From the IMG/VR virus record IMGVR_UViG_3300046000_001734, positions 1-33,865 of that record: a stretch of 33,865 nt of DNA. One strand, written 5' to 3'. This DNA comes from a virus. Position numbers and translations under genes: made by a program. Below, in pieces: positions 3,169 through 33,865 of the stretch (its first letter is position 1; each line of letters starts with the position of its first letter). The notes beneath the pieces are model-generated. The model did not search any database. It saw nothing but the letters and a program-made list of their open reading frames with translations, and had not been told where the DNA came from.

Positions 3169-3647
3169 GGTCTGATCCTCCCATAAAGTGTGTAATCTGA
3201 GCCGTCCATTCCGAATTTTTGCATCACGCCCTCAAGCGTGAAGCCAAGCGCCAGCGGCCAGCTCTGTGAATAATCTGCTGCAGATTCTATTGCCACTTGA
3301 ACCCTTGTCAAACCAAGCGATTGCTGAGCGATATCAAGAGCAGTCCTCACACCCACAATCAGCTGGCGCTTGAACTGCTGCTTCACACTGTCATCGATGA
3401 TCGTCCACACCTCGCCGACACCCTTCCAAAGCACTGCGATGCCAATGATCCCAAGCAATTTTCCGTTGTAGTACAGCGCCCCGCTTGGGCCCCGCTCCAT
3501 GTTGAAGTGAATGGTGTCCATCGCATCAATAGGGAATGGTGATCGCACCCACTGAGACAACCGCTCGATGTGCCAGTCAGTGATTGGCTCAAAGTAAATA
3601 CCGGTGCAAGCCAGCTTTTCATTAACGGTGTCGATCAGGTCTGTCAT
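3141..3647 (-). CDS. T7 gp13-like (DUF2833) GNAT-fold protein
   Basis: The protein is 168 aa. It has a GNAT-like layout: a central GALYYNGKLLGIIGIAVLW strand pair, a WTIIDDS segment, a helix with FKRQLIVGVRTALD, and a late A-LGFTLEGVM strand typical of acetyltransferase folds. T7 gp13 and relatives (DUF2833) have this fold and are needed for virion assembly, probably without catalysis. The start (3647) overlaps the terL stop (3644) as ATGA, so the two are coupled. A role in head or internal-core assembly is inferred from family and place. An active acetyltransferase cannot be excluded. Confidence 0.75.
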   Translation of the reverse strand: MTDLIDTVNEKLACTGIYFEPITDWHIERLSQWVRSPFPIDAMDTIHFNMERGPSGALYYNGKLLGIIGIAVLWKGVGEVWTIIDDSVKQQFKRQLIVGVRTALDIAQQSLGLTRVQVAIESAADYSQSWPLALGFTLEGVMQKFGMDGSDYTLYGRIRPCQHQSSQL

Positions 3648-5340: not shown

Positions 5341-5775
5341 TCAATCACCTTTTAAGTCAACAATATCATTAACCGGGGACTTAATGTTGATCCCGATCAC
5401 CGATGGCTTGTCAGATTCCTCTGGGTTGTCCAGCAATCCAGAAGCCTTGGCCAGAATGCGCAGCACCCCAACCTTGTCATACAGCTCAATCTCAAGCGTT
5501 GAGTTACCGTCCCGGTCAACCTTCTGCTTGATGGACTTGATCGCGGTCAGTGCATGCTCAGGGATCTGGTGTGCAGCCTTCACCGTCACATTGCCAGATT
5601 CATCCCAGGTCATGATGTCAGAGATCTTCGTGTTGGCCATGCACAACAGCGCATAAGCCACAGCCTCCCGATTGCCAGCCAAGGTGGTAGACCGCTCAAG
5701 CCTGCGCTCAATCGATCTCGTACCACCCCAGCCCTGCACACTGGGGATCTGCGTCGGTTGCTTCCTGGTAGCCAT
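5341..5775 (-). CDS. terS: Probable terminase small subunit
   Basis: The protein is 144 aa. The N-terminus is short and basic. A helical segment with ERRLERSTTLAGNREAVAYALL follows, then AIKSIKQKVDRDGNSTLEIE, then DKVGVLRILAKASGLL near the C-terminus. The last pattern is common in small terminase subunits of podophages. TerS forms a ring that recognises the packaging site and loads TerL. Its place just before terL, with only one small gene between, supports the call. The start at 5775 overlaps the upstream stop by one base (TGATG). The assignment rests on motif memory and context, not on a search. Confidence 0.75.
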   Translation of the reverse strand: MATRKQPTQIPSVQGWGGTRSIERRLERSTTLAGNREAVAYALLCMANTKISDIMTWDESGNVTVKAAHQIPEHALTAIKSIKQKVDRDGNSTLEIELYDKVGVLRILAKASGLLDNPEESDKPSVIGINIKSPVNDIVDLKGD

Positions 5776-6050
5776 CAGAATGGGATATCGTCGTCAATGT
5801 CAACCACAAAAGCATTGGCCTTGGCCTGGCTGTGCTCAGACACCGGCGCTGCAGCTTTCGGAGGCTTGGGCTTACCAATCTTCACAGAGAACCAATGCTC
5901 ACCCGCCTGCGTCTTTCCAGGCTTGATGTCCAAAAAGCAAAGCGTGCCATCAGGCAGCATAACCTCACCCTTGTACGGCGCATGCCAGTCCTCAGTTTTA
6001 AATTTATTCACAAAGGCTGAGCCCTGTCCTGGTTTTAGTTCGTATGCCAT
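5775..6050 (-). CDS. Small SSB-like protein with acidic DDDIPF tail
   Basis: From ATG 6050 the protein is 91 aa. GAAAGGA lies upstream of this ATG, and none is upstream of the longer ATG at 6095, so the shorter start is chosen. Residues 1-62 form a compact beta-rich stretch (GEVMLPDG, FLDIKPGKT, WFSVKIGKP). A Pro/Ala linker follows, and the protein ends DIDDDIPF. That tip is the hallmark of single-strand DNA-binding proteins, which use it to recruit host repair and replication proteins. The body is shorter than a standard SSB OB fold. Binding to ssDNA is inferred, not shown. Confidence 0.6.
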   Translation of the reverse strand: MAYELKPGQGSAFVNKFKTEDWHAPYKGEVMLPDGTLCFLDIKPGKTQAGEHWFSVKIGKPKPPKAAAPVSEHSQAKANAFVVDIDDDIPF

Positions 6051-6103
6051 AAATATCCTTTCAGTTGGCAAGTTTACAAATCCCCATAAAAGCATGGGAA
6101 AAA

Positions 6104-6406: not shown

Positions 6407-6746
6407 GGGAAAGTCCTTTCAGGGAAAAAAGTTGGGAAAAATTGTGGGTGACCCCCGTATCGCTACGGTAGGGGGGAGGGGGGAAGGCATCGATTTCTAC
6501 GCGCTCGTCAACAGGCGCGTTATCGCAAGCGTAGCGCTGGCGCATATAGGTTGAGGCCGGATTCCCAGGCACACGTCGCAGCATGCCCCTGGCTTGTACA
6601 AAATCCATACGTTCGTTTGAGCTTTGTACAGAACCGATTAAACGGCCTACAAGCGCTTGAAGCATTGAGTGGCTACCCATGTCTAGGTTGGCCTGCGATC
6701 GTGGCGTATGGATCGATTTAGGTGCCTTGGTGATGCCTTCGGTCAT
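6399..6746 (-). CDS. Hypothetical protein downstream of the replication gene
   Basis: The protein is 115 aa. It starts at ATG 6746 overlapping the stop of the replication gene (ATGA), so it is translationally coupled. The middle is charged and helical (MLQALVGRLIGSVQSSNERMDFVQARGMLRR). The C-terminus includes a Pro run (FPPPPYRSD), encoded by two C6 tracts on the sense strand. No domain is recognised. The homopolymer tracts make the last ~25 residues the least certain part; an indel there would change the C-terminus. Confidence 0.65.
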   Translation of the reverse strand: MTEGITKAPKSIHTPRSQANLDMGSHSMLQALVGRLIGSVQSSNERMDFVQARGMLRRVPGNPASTYMRQRYACDNAPVDERVEIDAFPPPPYRSDTGVTHNFSQLFSLKGLSHD

Positions 6747-7717
6747 GTGGCATCCCGCTTCATCTGCATCAGTCCGTCAACCAGGTGCTGAGGCTTGGGT
6801 GTCAGTCCCTCGGCTTTGTAGACCGCCAGCAGCGTTGTCAGACCTTCATCGATCTCAGCTTCGGTCATTCCAAACTCAATCAATTTCACAATCGCTTCGT
6901 TGTTTAGAACACATCTTAGATCTTCTCTTTTATTTAAATCTAAGTTTAATTCTTTCTTAGGTTTAACCTTACTAAGTACTTCTCTATAGTTAATTTCTGA
7001 GTTAAGCACAACCTCCAGGTTGTTATCATCCACAACCTCCAGGTTGTTAATGGAGAGCTCATTTTTGTCATTGTTTACAGAGTTATCCACAGTCTTTTGC
7101 ACAGGTTTTGTTGTTCCTGATGACCGCTTTGACTTGGCTTTTTGGATGTCTTCCTTCATCTTTTTGACCGTCCTGGTCTGTCCTGATGTGGGCATGGTTT
7201 TCTCCTGGTTAAGTGGTTTCTTAAGTGCCTTGCTGATGAGCCTGGCGATCCTGGCCTGGCCCTCTTTGTCGATCTCTTCTGCTTGCCTCCTTTGCTCCTC
7301 GATGATGGCCGGTGGCCTTGTGTCTTCCTTGTTGCTTGTCATGGTGATTGCATCCTCCGCTGTGATATCTGGGTCGAACACTACGCGCAGGGTGTCTGAG
7401 CGCTGTCCTCTGAATCCTCTGCGCACTATCTCCAAGTAGCCGTTGTCCTTGAGCTGCTTGTATTGCTTGGCCACTGCTTGCTGGGTGATGCCCAGGTCTT
7501 GAGCGATCCTGCCTTGGCTGACCCATGTGATGCCGGCACGGTTGCAATACGCGCACAGCGCTGCCAGTGCCTGGAGTGCACCGTGACTGAGCTTCTTGTC
7601 AAACACAGCTCTGAACGGGATCACGCAGACCTTGCGCTGGTCTGGCAGTGGTTCCTGTTCTTTGATCCTGGGCTTCTTTGGCAGCTCAAAGCCGATGGGT
7701 TCAGCCATTGCGTTCAT
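6743..7717 (-). CDS. Replication initiator, winged-helix (lambda O-like)
   Basis: The protein is 324 aa. Residues ~43-116 form a winged helix-turn-helix: a GALQALAALCAYCN helix, a GRIAQDLGITQQAVAKQYKQL recognition region split over 69-90, and a wing ending LRVVFD. The fold is typical of phage replisome organisers such as lambda O, which bind origin iterons. A long hydrophilic, Lys/Asn-rich linker (~125-270) precedes a C-terminal helical domain. The linker DNA holds two tandem palindromic repeats, an AT-rich block and a consensus DnaA box, as in lambda where ori lies inside O. ATG 7708 is an alternative start. No helicase loader is recognised nearby. Confidence 0.75.
   Translation of the reverse strand: MNAMAEPIGFELPKKPRIKEQEPLPDQRKVCVIPFRAVFDKKLSHGALQALAALCAYCNRAGITWVSQGRIAQDLGITQQAVAKQYKQLKDNGYLEIVRRGFRGQRSDTLRVVFDPDITAEDAITMTSNKEDTRPPAIIEEQRRQAEEIDKEGQARIARLISKALKKPLNQEKTMPTSGQTRTVKKMKEDIQKAKSKRSSGTTKPVQKTVDNSVNNDKNELSINNLEVVDDNNLEVVLNSEINYREVLSKVKPKKELNLDLNKREDLRCVLNNEAIVKLIEFGMTEAEIDEGLTTLLAVYKAEGLTPKPQHLVDGLMQMKRDAT
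6905..7006. other. AT-rich tract of the putative origin (DNA-unwinding element)
   Basis: About 100 bases inside the replication gene are much richer in A+T than the surroundings, by eye around 70%. They contain repeated TTTAAATCTAAG / TTAGGTTTAACC-like words. The tract abuts the tandem iterons. In lambda-type origins such a tract next to initiator-bound iterons is where strands first open. The role here is inferred from composition and arrangement. Confidence 0.55.
7007..7050. repeat. Two tandem palindromic iterons (putative initiator sites)
   Basis: The unit ACAACCTCCAGGTTGT occurs at 7008-7023 and 7032-7047, exactly 24 bases apart. The 19 bases starting at 7007 and 7031 are identical. Each unit is a dyad of 7-base arms (ACAACCT/AGGTTGT) around two bases. 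They encode a repeated Asn-Leu-Glu-Val-Val in the protein. Tandem dyads inside an initiator gene, beside an AT-rich tract, fit binding sites for that initiator. Confidence 0.65.
7083..7091 (+). promoter_or_regulatory. Consensus DnaA box
   Basis: The nonamer TTATCCACA is a perfect match to the bacterial DnaA box. It lies 36 bases from the iterons, on their side away from the AT-rich tract. A single nonamer could occur by chance, but its place supports a host DnaA-assisted origin. Confidence 0.55.
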
Positions 7718-7934: not shown

Positions 7935-8050
7935 TTCCTGGCTTTCTGGTAGCAAGCAGCGCAGACCCAGCGACGCATGCCCAGCACGCGCATGAGCTTG
8001 CCGCCGGTCTGTGGATTGACCTGGTTGCAAAGTGGGCATTGCCTTGTCAT
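7931..8050 (-). CDS. 39-aa zinc-ribbon microprotein
   Basis: This small frame runs from ATG 8050 to a stop at 7931-7933. It has two CxxC pairs (QCPLCNQ at 4-10 and VCAACYQ at 29-35), the minimum for one structural zinc. Basic residues lie between and after them. The start overlaps the stop of the 158-aa gene (ATGA) and its stop overlaps the next start (GTGA). That coupling and the Cys spacing argue that it is real. Nucleic-acid binding is plausible. Confidence 0.7.
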   Translation of the reverse strand: MTRQCPLCNQVNPQTGGKLMRVLGMRRWVCAACYQKARK

Positions 8051-8523
8051 GCTGCAGCCTCCACGATTGGCCTGGCACGACGGTGCTTGATGGCCTCATA
8101 CACAAACTTGATAGCCGACTCCAGCTCAGCCACTGTGCAGGCATCGAGCTGGGCATCGTGCACTTCCATGCCAGTGTTGATCGCCTGCAGCTCTGGCCCT
8201 GTAAACAGAAAACGACCTCTGGCCACACCACGCTTGGCCATGGTGTAGATGGCATCCTGGGCTGCCTTGACCTCGGCTGCGTACTGCTTGCCAAGATCCT
8301 GGTTGACAATGTGCAACGCCTCAGCCATGTTCATGGCCGCAATCAGCACGTCAACTTGCTGCTTGTCACCGTCGCCCTGCGTCACGTCTAAGAGCGCCTG
8401 GTGGTTCTTAATCTTCAACCCAATGGCCTCGCTGTGTGAGCTCATGGGCTTGAACCCGTTGATCACCCATGCCACTGGATCGGGCAGCAATGGGCGCGGT
8501 CTGTACTTGCTGCGCTTTCTCAT
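8047..8523 (-). CDS. Conserved phage protein of unknown function (158 aa)
   Basis: The protein starts MRKRSKYRPRPLLPDPVAW and continues as an alpha-helical body. A helix carries DVLIAAMNMAEALHIVN, then GRFLFTGPELQAINTGMEVHD, and the protein ends with a basic Arg/Pro patch and EAAA. I recognise the family from phages and prophages of Burkholderiales and related bacteria, where it is annotated only as hypothetical and lies with RusA and replication genes. It is soluble with no Cys cluster. Start and stop are both ATGA-coupled to neighbours. Confidence 0.8.
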   Translation of the reverse strand: MRKRSKYRPRPLLPDPVAWVINGFKPMSSHSEAIGLKIKNHQALLDVTQGDGDKQQVDVLIAAMNMAEALHIVNQDLGKQYAAEVKAAQDAIYTMAKRGVARGRFLFTGPELQAINTGMEVHDAQLDACTVAELESAIKFVYEAIKHRRARPIVEAAA

Positions 8524-8693
8524 CGCTTGCCCTTCATCTTGTCAACCCAGCAGACAGCGCAGTACCAACGCTGCGGACTGGTCTGCACTCCGCCCTCTGG
8601 TGGGCGCTTCTCTTCACAGCGGTGGCACAGCTTAAACGGCTGGCCGTTGACTCGGCTGCCGGTCAGGCTAACCTGGTGTTTTGCAAAACTCAC
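8520..8693 (-). CDS. 57-aa zinc-ribbon protein (GTG start)
   Basis: The frame from GTG 8693 overlaps the rusA stop (GTGA) and ends at 8520-8522, overlapping the next ATG. The residues include KLCHRCEEKRPP and, later, WYCAVCWVDKMKGKR, giving two CxxC pairs about 20 residues apart. This is a treble-clef or zinc-ribbon-like fold with a basic tail. No ATG is available in a suitable place, so GTG is the best start. It is probably a small nucleic-acid-binding partner in the recombination/replication operon. Confidence 0.7.
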   Translation of the reverse strand: MSFAKHQVSLTGSRVNGQPFKLCHRCEEKRPPEGGVQTSPQRWYCAVCWVDKMKGKR

Positions 8694-9118
8694 TTCAATA
8701 CCTCATGAACGTAAACCTCAATGCGAGGTTCAAAAGAATAGCTTTTTTCAATGACAAGCCTGATCACTTGCTTGTCGTCCTCATAAACCACGCCATTGAG
8801 CGCGTCCAGGACGGCCTTGGCCACGTTGTCCAGGTCTGGCTTGCCTGGTATCAGATCACCACTGAGCGCCAGCTGCTGCTTGCGCTTTGACCATGACACC
8901 GGGATGTTGTACAGCGCCACAATGCGCATGCTGATCGGGGTGTAGAGCATTTCAGCCAGGTTGCCCATGGCATACGTTGCCTGCTTGGCAATAAGCTGCT
9001 CATACGACAGCGTCTTGGCGTCGGTGTACATGCGCACAAACCCACCACGGCTGCTTGCTCTTGGCCTGCCCTTGCCTACCGGCTGACCAGGCACAACAAA
9101 GAAGATGGCCGCGCTCAT
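8690..9118 (-). CDS. rusA: RusA-type Holliday junction resolvase
   Basis: The protein is 142 aa, a normal RusA length. The N-terminus has the Gly-Gln-Pro / Lys-Gly-Arg-Pro-Arg segment (11-20). The catalytic region is KPDLDNVAKAVLDALNG (93-109), with acids at D95, D97 and D105, followed by VYEDDKQV (111-118). RusA cuts four-way junctions and so can resolve recombination or replication intermediates before packaging. It overlaps its upstream neighbour by ATGA. The YqaJ-type exonuclease and RecT on the other strand form the matching recombination set. Confidence 0.92.
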   Translation of the reverse strand: MSAAIFFVVPGQPVGKGRPRASSRGGFVRMYTDAKTLSYEQLIAKQATYAMGNLAEMLYTPISMRIVALYNIPVSWSKRKQQLALSGDLIPGKPDLDNVAKAVLDALNGVVYEDDKQVIRLVIEKSYSFEPRIEVYVHEVLK

Positions 9119-9879: not shown

Positions 9880-10530
9880 ATGACCAAGTTTGTCGCATAC
9901 TTCCGAGTCTCTACAGATCGCCAGGGCCAGTCAGGTCTTGGCCTGGATGCACAGCGCCAGGCTGTTGCGCAGCACGTCGGAGACCAGGAGCTGGTTGCTG
10001 AGTTCACAGAGGTCGAGTCTGGCCGCAAGACAGATCGTGTGCAGCTGGCTCAGGCCATGAGCCTTGCAAAGCGTACAAAGTCTGTCCTGGTGATCGCCAA
10101 ACTTGATCGCCTGGCACGTAATGTCCACTTCATTTCCGGCCTGCTTGAGTCAGGCGTTCCATTCGTTTGCGCTGACATGCCAGAAGCTGATCGCACCTTC
10201 TTGCAAATGTCTGCTGTGTTTGCTGAGTGGGAAGCACGCAAGATCAGCGAGCGCACCAAGGCTGCCCTGGCACAAGCCAAGGCCCGTGGCACACGCTTGG
10301 GCTGCCCTACCCCTGCAGCTGGCAGCGCAGCTGGTGTGGCCAGCATCAAGACCAAGGCAGACGCATACGCTGCACGCATGTTGCCCATGGTGCGCGACAT
10401 CCAGGCACGCATGGCCACTGCCACACTTCGAGACATTGCTGCCGAGCTCACAGCTCGCGGCATTGAGACCGCCAGGGGCGGCACTACCTGGCACGCAAGC
10501 CAGGTTTCCAACTTGCTCGCAAGAGCTTAA
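9880..10530 (+). CDS. Small serine recombinase (resolvase/invertase family)
   Basis: The protein is 216 aa. The catalytic domain starts AYFRVST with nucleophile Ser11. It continues with AKLDRLARN (73-81) and the helix EARKISERTKAAL (118-130), all standard for the family. A C-terminal helix-turn-helix (about 186-214, ATLRDIAAELTARGI) reads DNA. The length matches resolvases and invertases rather than large phage integrases (over 450 aa). It sits before the exo/recT genes, so resolution of genome multimers or a site-specific inversion is possible. No paired inverted recombination sites were seen. Confidence 0.9.
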   Translation: MTKFVAYFRVSTDRQGQSGLGLDAQRQAVAQHVGDQELVAEFTEVESGRKTDRVQLAQAMSLAKRTKSVLVIAKLDRLARNVHFISGLLESGVPFVCADMPEADRTFLQMSAVFAEWEARKISERTKAALAQAKARGTRLGCPTPAAGSAAGVASIKTKADAYAARMLPMVRDIQARMATATLRDIAAELTARGIETARGGTTWHASQVSNLLARA

Positions 10531-14829: not shown

Positions 14830-15001
14830 CGTTTACCTTCTTTTCAAGTATTGGTGCGACCAGGTATTCTGGGCACTGCTGTGTGAATAAACACTTCGGC
14901 TTCTGACACTCTTCGGCATGGAAGTGATCAGGGTTTTGGCACTTGTATCGGTAGCGATCCTCGCAGCCAGCCAGCAATAAAAGCAAAAGCAAATATTTCA
15001 T
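14792..15001 (-). CDS. Small lipoprotein with Cys-rich tail
   Basis: The protein is 69 aa. It begins MKYLLLLLLLAGCEDRYRY, a signal peptide with lipobox LAGC and mature Cys13. The tail carries five more Cys (KCQNPDHF, CQKPKC, QQCPEY). I know this pattern as a small family in podophages and aquatic phages, of unknown function. It would sit in the inner or outer membrane by its lipid. It is too Cys-rich and too poor in Pro to be Rz1; the nested frame at 13858 fits that role better. The start is ATGA-coupled to the previous gene. Confidence 0.8.
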   Translation of the reverse strand: MKYLLLLLLLAGCEDRYRYKCQNPDHFHAEECQKPKCLFTQQCPEYLVAPILEKKVNDVQPAAETKANP

Positions 15002-16042: not shown

Positions 16043-16549
16043 TCAAGGAGCAACAGGCCAATCAATAGTCCAAGGGAAGCCAGACTGGCCAGTCACATCA
16101 CGCAAAGCCTGGCGATAAGTGGCCCAGGCTGGATCTAATGTTGTTGAAGTCTCAGCAGCCTTGATGACGCGCCAGTCGCACTCGGCCAACTTGCTGTCGC
16201 GTGTGGCACGCACAGACTTGGCTTGCTCGGCATCTTTGGTGGCTTTGTATGAAGCCTCATTCTCGGCAGCAGTCCTGGCTGGCTCTGTCTCAGTGGCAGC
16301 TGTATCTGCGAACACTGGGCCTAAGATGTACTTTGTGTACCACTTACCATTTACTTGCTCAACACCAGAGGCTTGAGAGTATTGGTAAACAGTACCGCCT
16401 GTTGCTTGTGGGCCTTCAAAGACTACGTCAGCACCAAGCTCATTGATGAGAGCCTCTGACAGTTGTTGTGGCATTGAAGTGTTTGGGAATATTGCACGAA
16501 ATTCACCTTCGTACATTACTGCTCCTGTTTCTCTGATTCTGATTTGCAT
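16043..16549 (-). CDS. Putative tail fiber assembly chaperone / tip protein
   Basis: ATG 16549 gives 168 aa. A longer frame from TTG 16579 overlaps the previous gene and is less likely. The N-terminus starts MQIRIRETGAVMYEGEFRA. Residues ~90-125 are Ala/Glu-rich, and the protein ends with a helix and WATYRQALRDVTGQSGFPWTIDWP. The Tyr-Arg-Gln-Ala-Leu-Arg-Asp motif plus Trp-Pro end is typical of phage tail assembly chaperones of the PF16778 kind. It follows the receptor-binding gene directly, as these chaperones usually do. It probably helps fold the protein encoded just upstream. Confidence 0.72.
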   Translation of the reverse strand: MQIRIRETGAVMYEGEFRAIFPNTSMPQQLSEALINELGADVVFEGPQATGGTVYQYSQASGVEQVNGKWYTKYILGPVFADTAATETEPARTAAENEASYKATKDAEQAKSVRATRDSKLAECDWRVIKAAETSTTLDPAWATYRQALRDVTGQSGFPWTIDWPVAP

Positions 16550-16571
16550 GATTATTTTCCCAATGTAATGT

Positions 16572-18560
16572 TCAAGCAATTGCTAAAAAGATGAATGTTC
16601 CACCACTTGCATTGATGGCTGCTGGCGCTGTTGAGCTAATCTCAAACCCTGCGCTGTATGTGTCAATGTAGTCAGTAGATGTTACTTCAGCGGCTGTGCT
16701 GTTCAAGAGCAAGTAAGGGTCATTGCCACTCACAATACCTCGTGCTGAGTCCCATACATATGGGTCACCACCATCGTTTACACCTGTTCGTCTAATTAAA
16801 ACAAATCTTGCACCAGTAGTAAATCCACAGTTAATTTGAAGTGTTGTTCCTGTACCAGTATATGAGCCTACTTTTGAAACGCCAGCGCAAGTAGCAAATA
16901 AATAGGCAACGTAAGTCTGACCAGAGCCATTTACAGCACCTGAACCATCAACACTAAAAACAGTCGTAGTTGGAGAAGTTGAGTTCCAAAACGAAACTTC
17001 ACTTGCTGCTCCATTACCATTTAAATTGACAGAAAATTCGTTCCCCATTGCTGAATGATAAACAGGCCAGTTTGCAACATTTGACCTACTCTTTACAATC
17101 ATCATCTCTGGCGCTACGCCTAAGTTATGCGTCACAGTCCTTGCACTTCCAGTCCCTGTATAGCAAACCTCATCAAAGAAGCTAGGGGCACGTTTGAAGT
17201 TCCAATAAATTGCATCGACATCATTGAAGTTTGCAGGAGTGAAATAGCCTGTGCTTCCCCAATTCCTTGTTCTGTTTGTCGCACTAGCCTCAGCCGCAGT
17301 TGAAACTGAAGTTAAAAATGGCGATGCGTCTGTGACATTGGTTGTGTTTACCCGACGAAGCCTGTCATAGAAGAAAGTATCTTGACCACTTGCTTTGTTT
17401 CTTGCAATCTGTAAATCCACAGGAAAGTTTGTGGTGTTCTGTGTACCTGTTGAGTTGTTAACATTGATAGGACTAAATACACTTGTTCCAGTCGTAGGCA
17501 CTTTCATCGGGCCTCTACGAATGGCTATGTAGATGTAGGGGTCACCGCCTTGTATAACATTATCTTTAATAATAAAACCTGTTGATGTGAAGTCAATAAG
17601 ATTTGCTCCAGCATCTGCTTCAGCAGTTGCAAGGTTTGCAGAAATAATTTTGTCACCTGTGGTTGTTCCTGTTGAAACACCACGCATATTGTCAGCAATA
17701 CGCCAGTTACCAGAACCTCCTGCTTGAGCTTGCTTAAACATTACCCATTGAGGCTCATAGCCAAGATTGACAACAGCATCTACACCACCGCCAACAGCCA
17801 TTGACCCACACGAAATCACATTGTCTGTACCAGTCAGACCAAAGCCTCCTGCGTTGTGGGCAAATAGGTAGGCGACATAGGTGTTGTTATCAATCAACAA
17901 TGATGCGTTAACTGTTACTGATGTGCTTGTTACAGAAAATGAACCAGTAAGAGGGTCTTGTGCGGCTGTAGTGTTAAGCCTTAAAAATGCGTTATTACCA
18001 ACAGAACGATGGTAAACAACCCATCCATCTGCTGATTGAGTGTTCTTCAAAATAATGCAACCAGCCGCAACACCAAGGTTGTGATTAAATGTTGTATCTC
18101 CTGCTGATGAAGAAGTAAAAGTCACAACATCAAAGAACTTTGGTTGCTTGCGGAATGTCCATGAAACATAGTTTTGAAACGCATGGTTAGCAATTCGGTG
18201 CGAAGTATTTCCACCAGCATTTTGAACAGTAAATCCAGTTGTATTAAATGCTGAAATATAGTCAGCATCAGTCCACCCCAAATTTTCTGCGAGGGTTGAA
18301 TTACTTTGAATTGCTTTATTTACAGACCCACTTGTTCCAACACCTCTGGCTGTGTCCCATATTCCATGTTCTCCAATAGGCGAAGTTGAATTATCAGTTT
18401 GTTGTCTTGCTTTAATCCAAACCATTCCACCTTTAGTGGATAAATCAACACCATTGGTAATAGTTTGTGTGCCACTATCTCCTGTGTAGAGGTATGTGCT
18501 GAACACATCCTCGATGTAGTTGGCATCGTTACTTACCTGAGAGTTTTGTGAACTAAACAT
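16572..18560 (-). CDS. Receptor-binding / tail fiber protein with repeated DUF7483-like modules
   Basis: The protein is 662 aa, beta-rich, Gly/Ser/Thr/Asn-rich and without a signal. Modules of the type Asn-Leu-Gly ... Pro ... Lys ... Trp ... (Tyr-His or Asp ... Arg-Gly) recur near 36-74, 159-190, 264-296, 478-512 and 578-610. SWTFRKQPKFFD (132-144) and YWNFKRAPSFFD (452-463) mark a larger internal duplication. I recall such modules (DUF7483) in aquatic phage fibers. The DNA is clearly more AT-rich than the flanks (about 40% GC by eye). Position after the T7-type fiber and before the chaperone supports a host-recognition role. Confidence 0.78.
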   Translation of the reverse strand: MFSSQNSQVSNDANYIEDVFSTYLYTGDSGTQTITNGVDLSTKGGMVWIKARQQTDNSTSPIGEHGIWDTARGVGTSGSVNKAIQSNSTLAENLGWTDADYISAFNTTGFTVQNAGGNTSHRIANHAFQNYVSWTFRKQPKFFDVVTFTSSSAGDTTFNHNLGVAAGCIILKNTQSADGWVVYHRSVGNNAFLRLNTTAAQDPLTGSFSVTSTSVTVNASLLIDNNTYVAYLFAHNAGGFGLTGTDNVISCGSMAVGGGVDAVVNLGYEPQWVMFKQAQAGGSGNWRIADNMRGVSTGTTTGDKIISANLATAEADAGANLIDFTSTGFIIKDNVIQGGDPYIYIAIRRGPMKVPTTGTSVFSPINVNNSTGTQNTTNFPVDLQIARNKASGQDTFFYDRLRRVNTTNVTDASPFLTSVSTAAEASATNRTRNWGSTGYFTPANFNDVDAIYWNFKRAPSFFDEVCYTGTGSARTVTHNLGVAPEMMIVKSRSNVANWPVYHSAMGNEFSVNLNGNGAASEVSFWNSTSPTTTVFSVDGSGAVNGSGQTYVAYLFATCAGVSKVGSYTGTGTTLQINCGFTTGARFVLIRRTGVNDGGDPYVWDSARGIVSGNDPYLLLNSTAAEVTSTDYIDTYSAGFEISSTAPAAINASGGTFIFLAIA

Positions 18561-32979: not shown

Positions 32980-33865
32980 GCTGGCGCTCCTTGTGGTGTT
33001 GGCAATCCAGGCGGAGCCATACCCTGCTGCTGCATGGACATTTGAGCTGCCAAGGCTTGGGCCTGCTGGGCTTGCTGTTGCTCAATGGCAAAGGCACGCT
33101 CGGCAGCGCTGTTGCGAAGCGCAGAAGGCACTCCCAGCTTGTCGCCCAGGTAGTCGATCATGTCGCCGAACTTGACGGCAACTTGACCCTCGGCGCCCAT
33201 TTGCTGGGTGAGCTGAGCAAACTGCAGGGCTGCGTTGACTTCGTCCATTGCCTGGGCATTGGCCAGCGGTGATGTCGGAGCGACCTTCACCTCAAGACCG
33301 TTGACTCGCAGTGGCAAGTCAATTGCCCCGCGCTCGTCCATGACCTCCAGGATCTTCGACACAACAGGAATCATTGTCTCGTTGATCAAGCGGCCAAATG
33401 CTGAGCCAAGGTTTTGCGAGAGCTCTTTCATGCGCTCGACAATCTCAGTAGCTGAACGTGCACTCATGTTCTCTGGTGGCAGTGACTCATCCAGCAAAAT
33501 GCGCTTGACGTTGCTGCGCAGATCGTTGATCACCAGCTGCGACACATTGAAGTCGCCAGAGCGTGGCAGGGCCATCAATGACGGGCCTTGTGGGCCACCG
33601 TTGCGCGCCACTGGAATGATGCCGCCAGGCACGATCTTGACTGTGTTTGGATTTAGCACGCCATCGTCGGCCGCCGTATACACGCCAGACACAGCAAGCG
33701 ATGCATTTTTCAGCAGCAGCTCGATTGTCTTGTTTAGCGTCTTGATGTCAGGCAATGCCGTCATCAATGGGCCACGGCCATAGATCTCACCGGCCACCTT
33801 CATGTAGCGCGAGATCACCCAGGGACTGATCTTGCGGCGGCGGTAGACCAGCTCGGCCTTGCTCC
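32976..33865 (-). CDS. Portal protein, C-terminal part, runs off the right edge
   Basis: The frame is open from base 33865 to the stop at 32976-32978. It includes VAGEIYGRGPLMTALPDIKT, a portal segment also present in the left copy, and ends in a Gln/Ala/Met/Pro-rich tail (QQQAQQAQALAAQ). Bases 33264-33865 repeat 7-608 with near-silent changes. It should be joined to 1-1329 to read the full gene; the apparent GTG start at 33818 is internal. Of the two, only this copy has the C-terminus. Confidence 0.9.
   Translation of the reverse strand, partial: SKAELVYRRRKISPWVISRYMKVAGEIYGRGPLMTALPDIKTLNKTIELLLKNASLAVSGVYTAADDGVLNPNTVKIVPGGIIPVARNGGPQGPSLMALPRSGDFNVSQLVINDLRSNVKRILLDESLPPENMSARSATEIVERMKELSQNLGSAFGRLINETMIPVVSKILEVMDERGAIDLPLRVNGLEVKVAPTSPLANAQAMDEVNAALQFAQLTQQMGAEGQVAVKFGDMIDYLGDKLGVPSALRNSAAERAFAIEQQQAQQAQALAAQMSMQQQGMAPPGLPTPQGAPA
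33264..33865. repeat. Right copy of the divergent terminal overlap
   Basis: This is the partner of 7-608. Differences are spread over 211-608 of the left copy and fall on third codon positions, except for the last two. The pattern shows two functional portal alleles, not sequencing noise. Confidence 0.9.

Follow-up and report, generated by a model that had tools for sequence, protein, structure and literature searches.

A putative replication origin inside a phage initiator gene, with dyad iterons that change together with the initiator's recognition helix

Here, we describe an element at positions 6904-7091 of a phage genome, inside the gene for the replication initiator, that very probably constitutes the origin of replication: initiator dimers would occupy two dyad iterons, the neighboring AT-rich tract would open and the replisome of the host would take over. 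The DNA analyzed, hereafter called the window, is the whole of IMG/VR record IMGVR_UViG_3300046000_001734, with a length of 33,865 nucleotides. There is strong evidence, from the comparison of relatives, that the sequence of the dyads is matched to the recognition helix of the very protein that is encoded around them.

Results

Composition of the Element

In the direction of the gene, the element is composed of a DnaA box, iteron 1, iteron 2 and the AT-rich tract. Its positions, together with those of the protein domains and of two genes of the surroundings, are as follows.

6743..7717, minus strand: initiator gene (324 aa, HTH_36 type), with the putative origin inside
7382..7585, minus strand: winged-helix DNA-binding domain, residues 45-112 (AlphaFold2, pLDDT about 90)
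7445..7483, minus strand: recognition helix, residues 79-91 (QQAVAKQYKQLKD; AlphaFold2 and covariation)
7083..7091, plus strand: DnaA box TTATCCACA
7031..7049, no strand: first 19-bp repeat (iteron 1), whose dyad ACAACC-N4-GGTTGT spans 7032-7047
7007..7025, no strand: second 19-bp repeat (iteron 2), whose dyad ACAACC-N4-GGTTGT spans 7008-7023
6904..7003, no strand: AT-rich putative unwinding tract, the least stable DNA of the record
6926..7123, minus strand: disordered linker, residues 199-264 (AlphaFold2, pLDDT under 50)
6749..6928, minus strand: C-terminal domain, small and helical (residues 264-323), retained in all three dyad classes (A, B and C)
8690..9118, minus strand: RusA Holliday-junction resolvase (PF05866, E 1.2e-35), part of the surrounding DNA-metabolism module
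5775..6095, minus strand: probable single-strand DNA-binding protein (SSB) beside terminase (weak PHROG ssb match, E 0.012)

A first-pass annotation had reported an AT-rich tract, two 19-base repeats at 24-base spacing that each form a dyad with 7-base arms, and a DnaA box, and all of these were found as described. The repeat CACAACCTCCAGGTTGTTA occurs exactly at 7007-7025 and at 7031-7049 (spacing 24 nt), with an expectation of 0.00 from dinucleotide shuffles and no further copy elsewhere in the window at up to three mismatches. Each copy contains ACAACCT-CC-AGGTTGT, a dyad with 7-bp arms, of which a core of 6-bp arms around a 4-nt spacer is conserved among relatives. The tract at about 6900-7000 comprises the AT-richest 60 bp (22% GC) and the AT-richest 100 bp (25% GC) of the 33.9-kb record, and nearest-neighbor calculation places the thermodynamic stability minimum of the whole record there. 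When the gene was shuffled synonymously with the protein held fixed, 0.5-0.6% of the shuffles contained two exact dyads and about 5% contained a DnaA box; an equally low AT tract appeared in 0 of 3000. Given these positions and shuffle statistics, the initial observation stands as written, refined by the 6+6 bp core. The GC skew, which had been proposed as a check, lends the origin no support and does not locate it: calculated on the wrapped circular map, GC and AT skew have a range of 206, no different from that of shuffled sequence (mean 169, maximum 300), and are thus uninformative. The ends of the record (1-608 and 33258-33865) overlap by 608 nt at 95.9% identity, and the portal gene is cut at both of them; the contig thus wraps a unit of about 33,257 bp, though with sequence differences, which may stem from a terminal redundancy that has diverged or from two strain variants.

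The Initiator Protein

Judged by its profile matches, the protein is an HTH_36-type phage replication initiator. Pfam family PF13730 (HTH_36) matches it at 27.1 bits, above the gathering score of 25 that serves as the cut-off, and the PHROGs families "replication initiation" and "replication initiation O-like" give weak matches; among the initiator relatives, PHROGs replication-initiation families are matched by 36-45 of 46. Pfam and PHROGs profile searches found no second initiator in the record. The winged helix that the first-pass annotation had supposed is borne out by the AlphaFold2 model, with helices at residues 45-57, 68-75 and 79-91 and strands at 95-99 and 109-112. Its best solved analogues include the N-terminal domains of plasmid initiators (4pql, 4pt7 and 5kbj); the match to 4pql has a Z score of 7.9 over 89 residues and a Foldseek E of 0.002, values with which unrelated winged helices tie, and generic winged helices dominate the fold search with the full model. 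A sequence search of the PDB returned generic winged-helix regulators only, plus repeat-rich TAL-effector matches in the C-terminal part that we judge to be spurious. The C-terminal domain by itself matched no solved structure in the fold search; presumably, it makes contact with the host replication machinery. The part of the gene that holds the iterons and a large portion of the AT tract codes for the disordered linker (residues 199-264) between the two domains, and because of this the protein would tolerate the presence of a DNA element in its gene.

Relatives Keep Paired Dyads beside an AT-Rich Tract

Without recourse to protein information, we scanned 2.9 million viral contigs of IMG/VR for pairs of ACAACCN4GGTTGT separated by 4-34 nt. 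This motif-only scan returned 75 loci, and every pair lies within a relative of the window's initiator gene: for 74 of the loci, BLASTP shows the relationship directly, at identities as low as about 27%, and the sequence of the 75th (L067) continues the same protein as L060. At these loci, the middle four bases of the dyad vary, amino-acid changes included, and the arms are fixed. A search by protein alignment identified 417 initiator relatives in the IMG/VR viral contigs. Among 84,980 prokaryote genomes it identified none, a result suggesting virulent phages; the family apparently belongs to such phages, with uncultured and probably Gram-negative hosts.

The best 80 of the 417 relatives, together with the window, yielded a protein-selected set of 73 distinct genes. 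Whether relatives keep the dyads had been named as a test of the origin, and in all 73 a pair of dyads occupies the same place, with a sequence that falls into one of three classes. Equally without exception, the AT-richest 60 bp of the gene (17-32% GC) come directly after the dyads, within its 3' third, and GC3 is lower in the AT tract than in the rest of the gene (mean 0.23 versus 0.72). The spacing of the dyads among relatives is mostly 24 or 48 nt, with 23, 33, 54, 59, 69, 72 and 81 nt also present, and follows no fixed helical phase; several relatives have an extra half-site or a third dyad between the dyads. Loci that illustrate this variation in spacing and make-up are L093, L113, L115, L121 and L147. 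Two loci at about 27% identity, L060 (2016-2900) and L070 (9338-10372), keep the helix and the ACAACC dyads although their C-terminal halves are unrelated, a combination indicative of a shuffling of the DNA-binding part and the origin between initiators.

For the DnaA box, what stood was its enrichment near the dyads and what did not was its constancy. Of 132 genes, 54 have TTAT[CT]CACA close to the dyads, where synonymous shuffles give 4.8, an enrichment of about 11-fold; the exact box is present in only about 40% of relatives and absent from over half. It lies upstream of the dyads or between them and in both orientations, encoded by PVDN/TVDK-type peptides or, when reversed, by VIHS. Its incomplete occurrence and its variable position and orientation suggest that the box is probably auxiliary; by its enrichment, it is probably functional yet not universal. 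An extended 13-mer DnaA pattern gave no signal (12 matches versus 6.6 expected). Beyond the origin, the record holds three more TTATTCACA boxes (3265-3273, 6004-6012 and 14882-14890), and TTATNCACA occurs four times in the record versus 0.9 expected.

The Dyads Switch Together with the Recognition Helix

About one third of the protein-selected relatives do not have the window's dyad and instead have another one at the same place. Scored from the DNA alone, the 73 genes fall into class A (ACAACC/GGTTGT, 53 genes), class B (GACACT/AGTGTC, 16 genes) and class C (GCAACC/GGTTGC, 4 genes). Scored from the protein alone, the start of the recognition helix reads QQ...K in all genes of class A, RQ...N in all of class B and RQ...K/R in all of class C. 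Helix class and dyad class thus agree in 73 of 73 protein-selected genes, with helix residue 79, which is Q or R, and residue 84, which is K, R or N, co-varying with the dyad sequence. The pairing has no exception among the 131 genes with a readable helix, many of which were found by motif, so that the 73 constitute the unbiased set.

On a maximum-likelihood tree that was built without the winged helix and the linker, dyad class and helix class require 12 changes each and agree in every row, equivalent to about 12 parallel helix-dyad switches; well-supported branches make five of the switches unavoidable, and each of these is concordant. The clearest natural swap is locus L090, in which helix and dyads are both of class B. 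Its AT tract is 90% identical to that of the window and 93% to that of L086, and identity to these two is 57-60% in the helix region and 32-40% in the dyad region. The three motif classes were defined after the sequences had been inspected; the later scans were predictive, as they used dyad variants first seen in single relatives and returned mostly new loci. Scanning for the C-type dyad gave ten loci, all in the initiator family and each with an R helix. With a 6-nt spacer, ACAACC gave 27 loci, 25 of them in the family and QQ wherever the helix is present, and with a 5-nt spacer eight loci, seven of them in the family, all QQ.

Might selection act on a repeated peptide, such as an NLEVV binding motif in the linker, and the DNA dyad be its by-product? 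Within the class A genes of gap 4, HN[LP][EQ]VV indeed hardly varies and is, with few exceptions, encoded in the same frame. The dyads of the other classes, however, sit at the same place and encode the unrelated peptides GHSTVS, TTSEVV, TQPPEVV and RQPPEVA, and the arms stay fixed while the central codons change. Across the groups with 4-, 5- and 6-nt spacers, moreover, the ACAACC arm is translated in each of the three frames (HNLEVV, TTSEVV and TQPPEVV), which argues for selection on the DNA and not on the peptide, and we see next to no chance that the peptide is the cause. By this comparative evidence, the dyads are shown to be DNA elements under selection that are coupled to the AT-rich tract.

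DNA elements under selection could serve purposes other than replication. Conceivably, the protein acts as a transcription factor that has no part in replication initiation and uses the dyads as operators to regulate its own or a downstream gene: its winged helix also resembles the regulators MarR, CodY and LexA, dyads are typical of operators, and autoregulation is common among plasmid initiators. We nevertheless consider such an operator function improbable, because the dyads lie about 670 nt into the reading frame and always beside the AT-rich minimum of the gene, often adjoined by a DnaA box, and because the protein possesses a linker and a conserved C-terminal domain, most relatives match replication-initiation families and no other initiator was found in the record. 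Sites for resolvase recombination, packaging (pac/cos) or partition come to mind as well, since both a serine resolvase (9880-10530) and terminase are encoded within a few kb. That the dyads co-vary with the initiator's own recognition helix in 131 of 131 genes speaks against any such transaction, as does the AT-rich tract beside the paired sites, which is a feature of origins; we regard this possibility as very slight.

Other Genes of the Record

Besides RusA and the probable SSB, Pfam and PHROGs profile searches identified a RecE/YqaJ-like exonuclease, RecT and a serine resolvase. The gene for the resolvase/invertase (9880-10530) is small and on the strand opposite to most genes, in a phage that is apparently virulent, given that its initiator family has no relative among the 84,980 prokaryote genomes. 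The virion genes are T7-like and include internal virion proteins, tail tubular proteins and a head-tail adaptor. A region of low G+C at 16500-18500 (about 42% versus about 54% elsewhere) spans the probable tail-fiber gene (16572-18560), suggesting its recent acquisition.

The statement in the first-pass annotation that the phage has no polymerase of its own is consistent with the PHROGs scans and the DNA_pol_A search. T7-like RNA polymerase had no match in the record either, in a search without a responding positive control. DnaB helicase, DNA polymerase A and a DnaC/IstB-type loader (PF01695) had no match in the record in searches whose positive controls responded. A helicase loader resembling lambda P was not recognized either, and the neighboring ORFs have no PHROG or NCBIfam function. 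A loader of an unrecognized type is possible; a conserved protein encoded at 8047-8523 (phrog_20828, E 4.9e-13), shortly before the initiator in the order of transcription, is a candidate.

Discussion

How might such an origin fire? In the scheme that we favor, dimers of the winged-helix domain would bind the two dyad iterons, and the perfect symmetry of the dyads as well as the covariation with the helix are consistent with binding by a dimer. The recognition helix would read ACAACC in each half-site; from the covariation, residue 79 (Q or R) may pair with the outermost base (A or G), with residue 84 helping to set the remaining bases of the half-site. Binding of the initiator would then destabilize the adjacent AT-rich tract, as suggested by its position and conservation, and host DnaA at the nearby box, the C-terminal domain, or both, might recruit the DnaB helicase and the replisome of the host. 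The recruitment step is suggested by the record, in which no phage-encoded helicase, helicase loader or polymerase is apparent. In this scheme, we infer origin activity, DnaA dependence and helicase recruitment alike.

The first-pass annotation had called the origin lambda-style, which is appropriate for its anatomy only. Like lambda O, the initiator has an N-terminal DNA-binding domain, a linker and a C-terminal domain, and like ori-lambda, the element lies within the gene, with dyad iterons of about 19 bp, which in lambda are bound by initiator dimers, and an AT-rich tract on the same (3') side of them. The lambda iterons are located at 349-433 of O (L169), and two iterons plus the AT tract represent the minimal unwinding unit in lambda (PMC7466680). 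The family differs from lambda in that it usually has two strong dyads, spaced 24-81 nt depending on the relative, instead of four iterons, in that a DnaA box adjoins the iterons in many relatives and in that no lambda P-like loader was recognized. Profile TIGR01610, which matches lambda O at 5.4e-39, matched neither the window nor its relatives, and PF04492 (Phage_rep_O) matched neither the initiator at E 0.1 nor anything else in the record. Direct homology to lambda O was rejected, with an hhalign probability of only 0.3%.

Plasmids of the RepA_N group (pSK41 Rep; the pPR9/pUSA03 hybrids) offer another parallel, with Rep boxes in the center of rep that encode a linker and with a winged-helix N-terminal domain. 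In pSK41 Rep, the linker encoded by the origin is dispensable, and in pPR9, N-terminal domain and origin have been exchanged as a block, the new domain being pfam13730 (HTH_36) (PMC5703833), the same Pfam family (PF13730) to which the initiator here belongs. RepA_N N-terminal domains rank first in the structure search with the initiator, at values tied with those of unrelated winged helices. PF06970 is absent from the initiator's Pfam matches up to E 0.1, and a search of the whole record gave no match to it, with controls that did not respond either. Unlike the RepA_N proteins, the initiator has a C-terminal domain of only about 60 residues without a structural match, and it is carried by apparently virulent phages rather than plasmids. 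The DnaA-assisted iteron plasmids P1, F and RK2 likewise combine initiator sites, an AT-rich tract and a DnaA box (PMC5043065); their iterons, however, are mostly direct repeats that are bound by monomers and lie outside coding sequence, whereas here they are dyads within the gene.

Among phage isolates, only Methylophilales phage MEP301 was found to have a homologue, gp55, which is annotated as hypothetical and is 40% identical over the N-terminal domain. MEP301 shares the module with RusA, SSB and terminase and the T7-like virion; an annotated ssDNA-binding protein directly precedes its terminase small subunit, paralleling the SSB here, and it also has a serine resolvase/invertase gene. Its authors likewise found neither a DNA nor an RNA polymerase (PMC8024684). 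No clear paired dyads were seen in or near gp55.

Given that the arrangement works like that of lambda O/ori-lambda and of RepA_N plasmids, and that type specificity is established, the kind of origin is already known; in lambdoid phages, the type specificity of O and origin was demonstrated genetically (Furth and Yates, 1978, as cited in PMC6022878). What is new is the family, the combination of a DnaA box with no recognized loader, and the many natural co-switches. Initiator and putative origin are hereby assigned at once for a family of 417 IMG/VR relatives; in the published genome of MEP301, neither had been assigned. The natural classes of helix and dyad may be regarded as an evolutionary recognition code for a winged-helix initiator, with Q-A and R-G pairing between residue 79 and the outer base.

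From a broader perspective, we tentatively entertain a wider reading, which we would not yet favor: that this is a widespread aquatic family of T7-like phages with a hybrid origin, in which lambda-like dyad iterons and an unwinding tract inside the initiator gene are combined with host DnaA delivering DnaB, in place of a phage helicase loader, and with a specificity cassette made of helix and iterons. Helix and iterons would then be exchanged together, so that close relatives would fall into at least three origin classes incompatible with one another, and co-infecting phages would consequently not fire each other's origins. The finding raises the questions of how origin specificity evolves by co-switching within one gene and whether phages without a loader of their own borrow the DnaA of their host.
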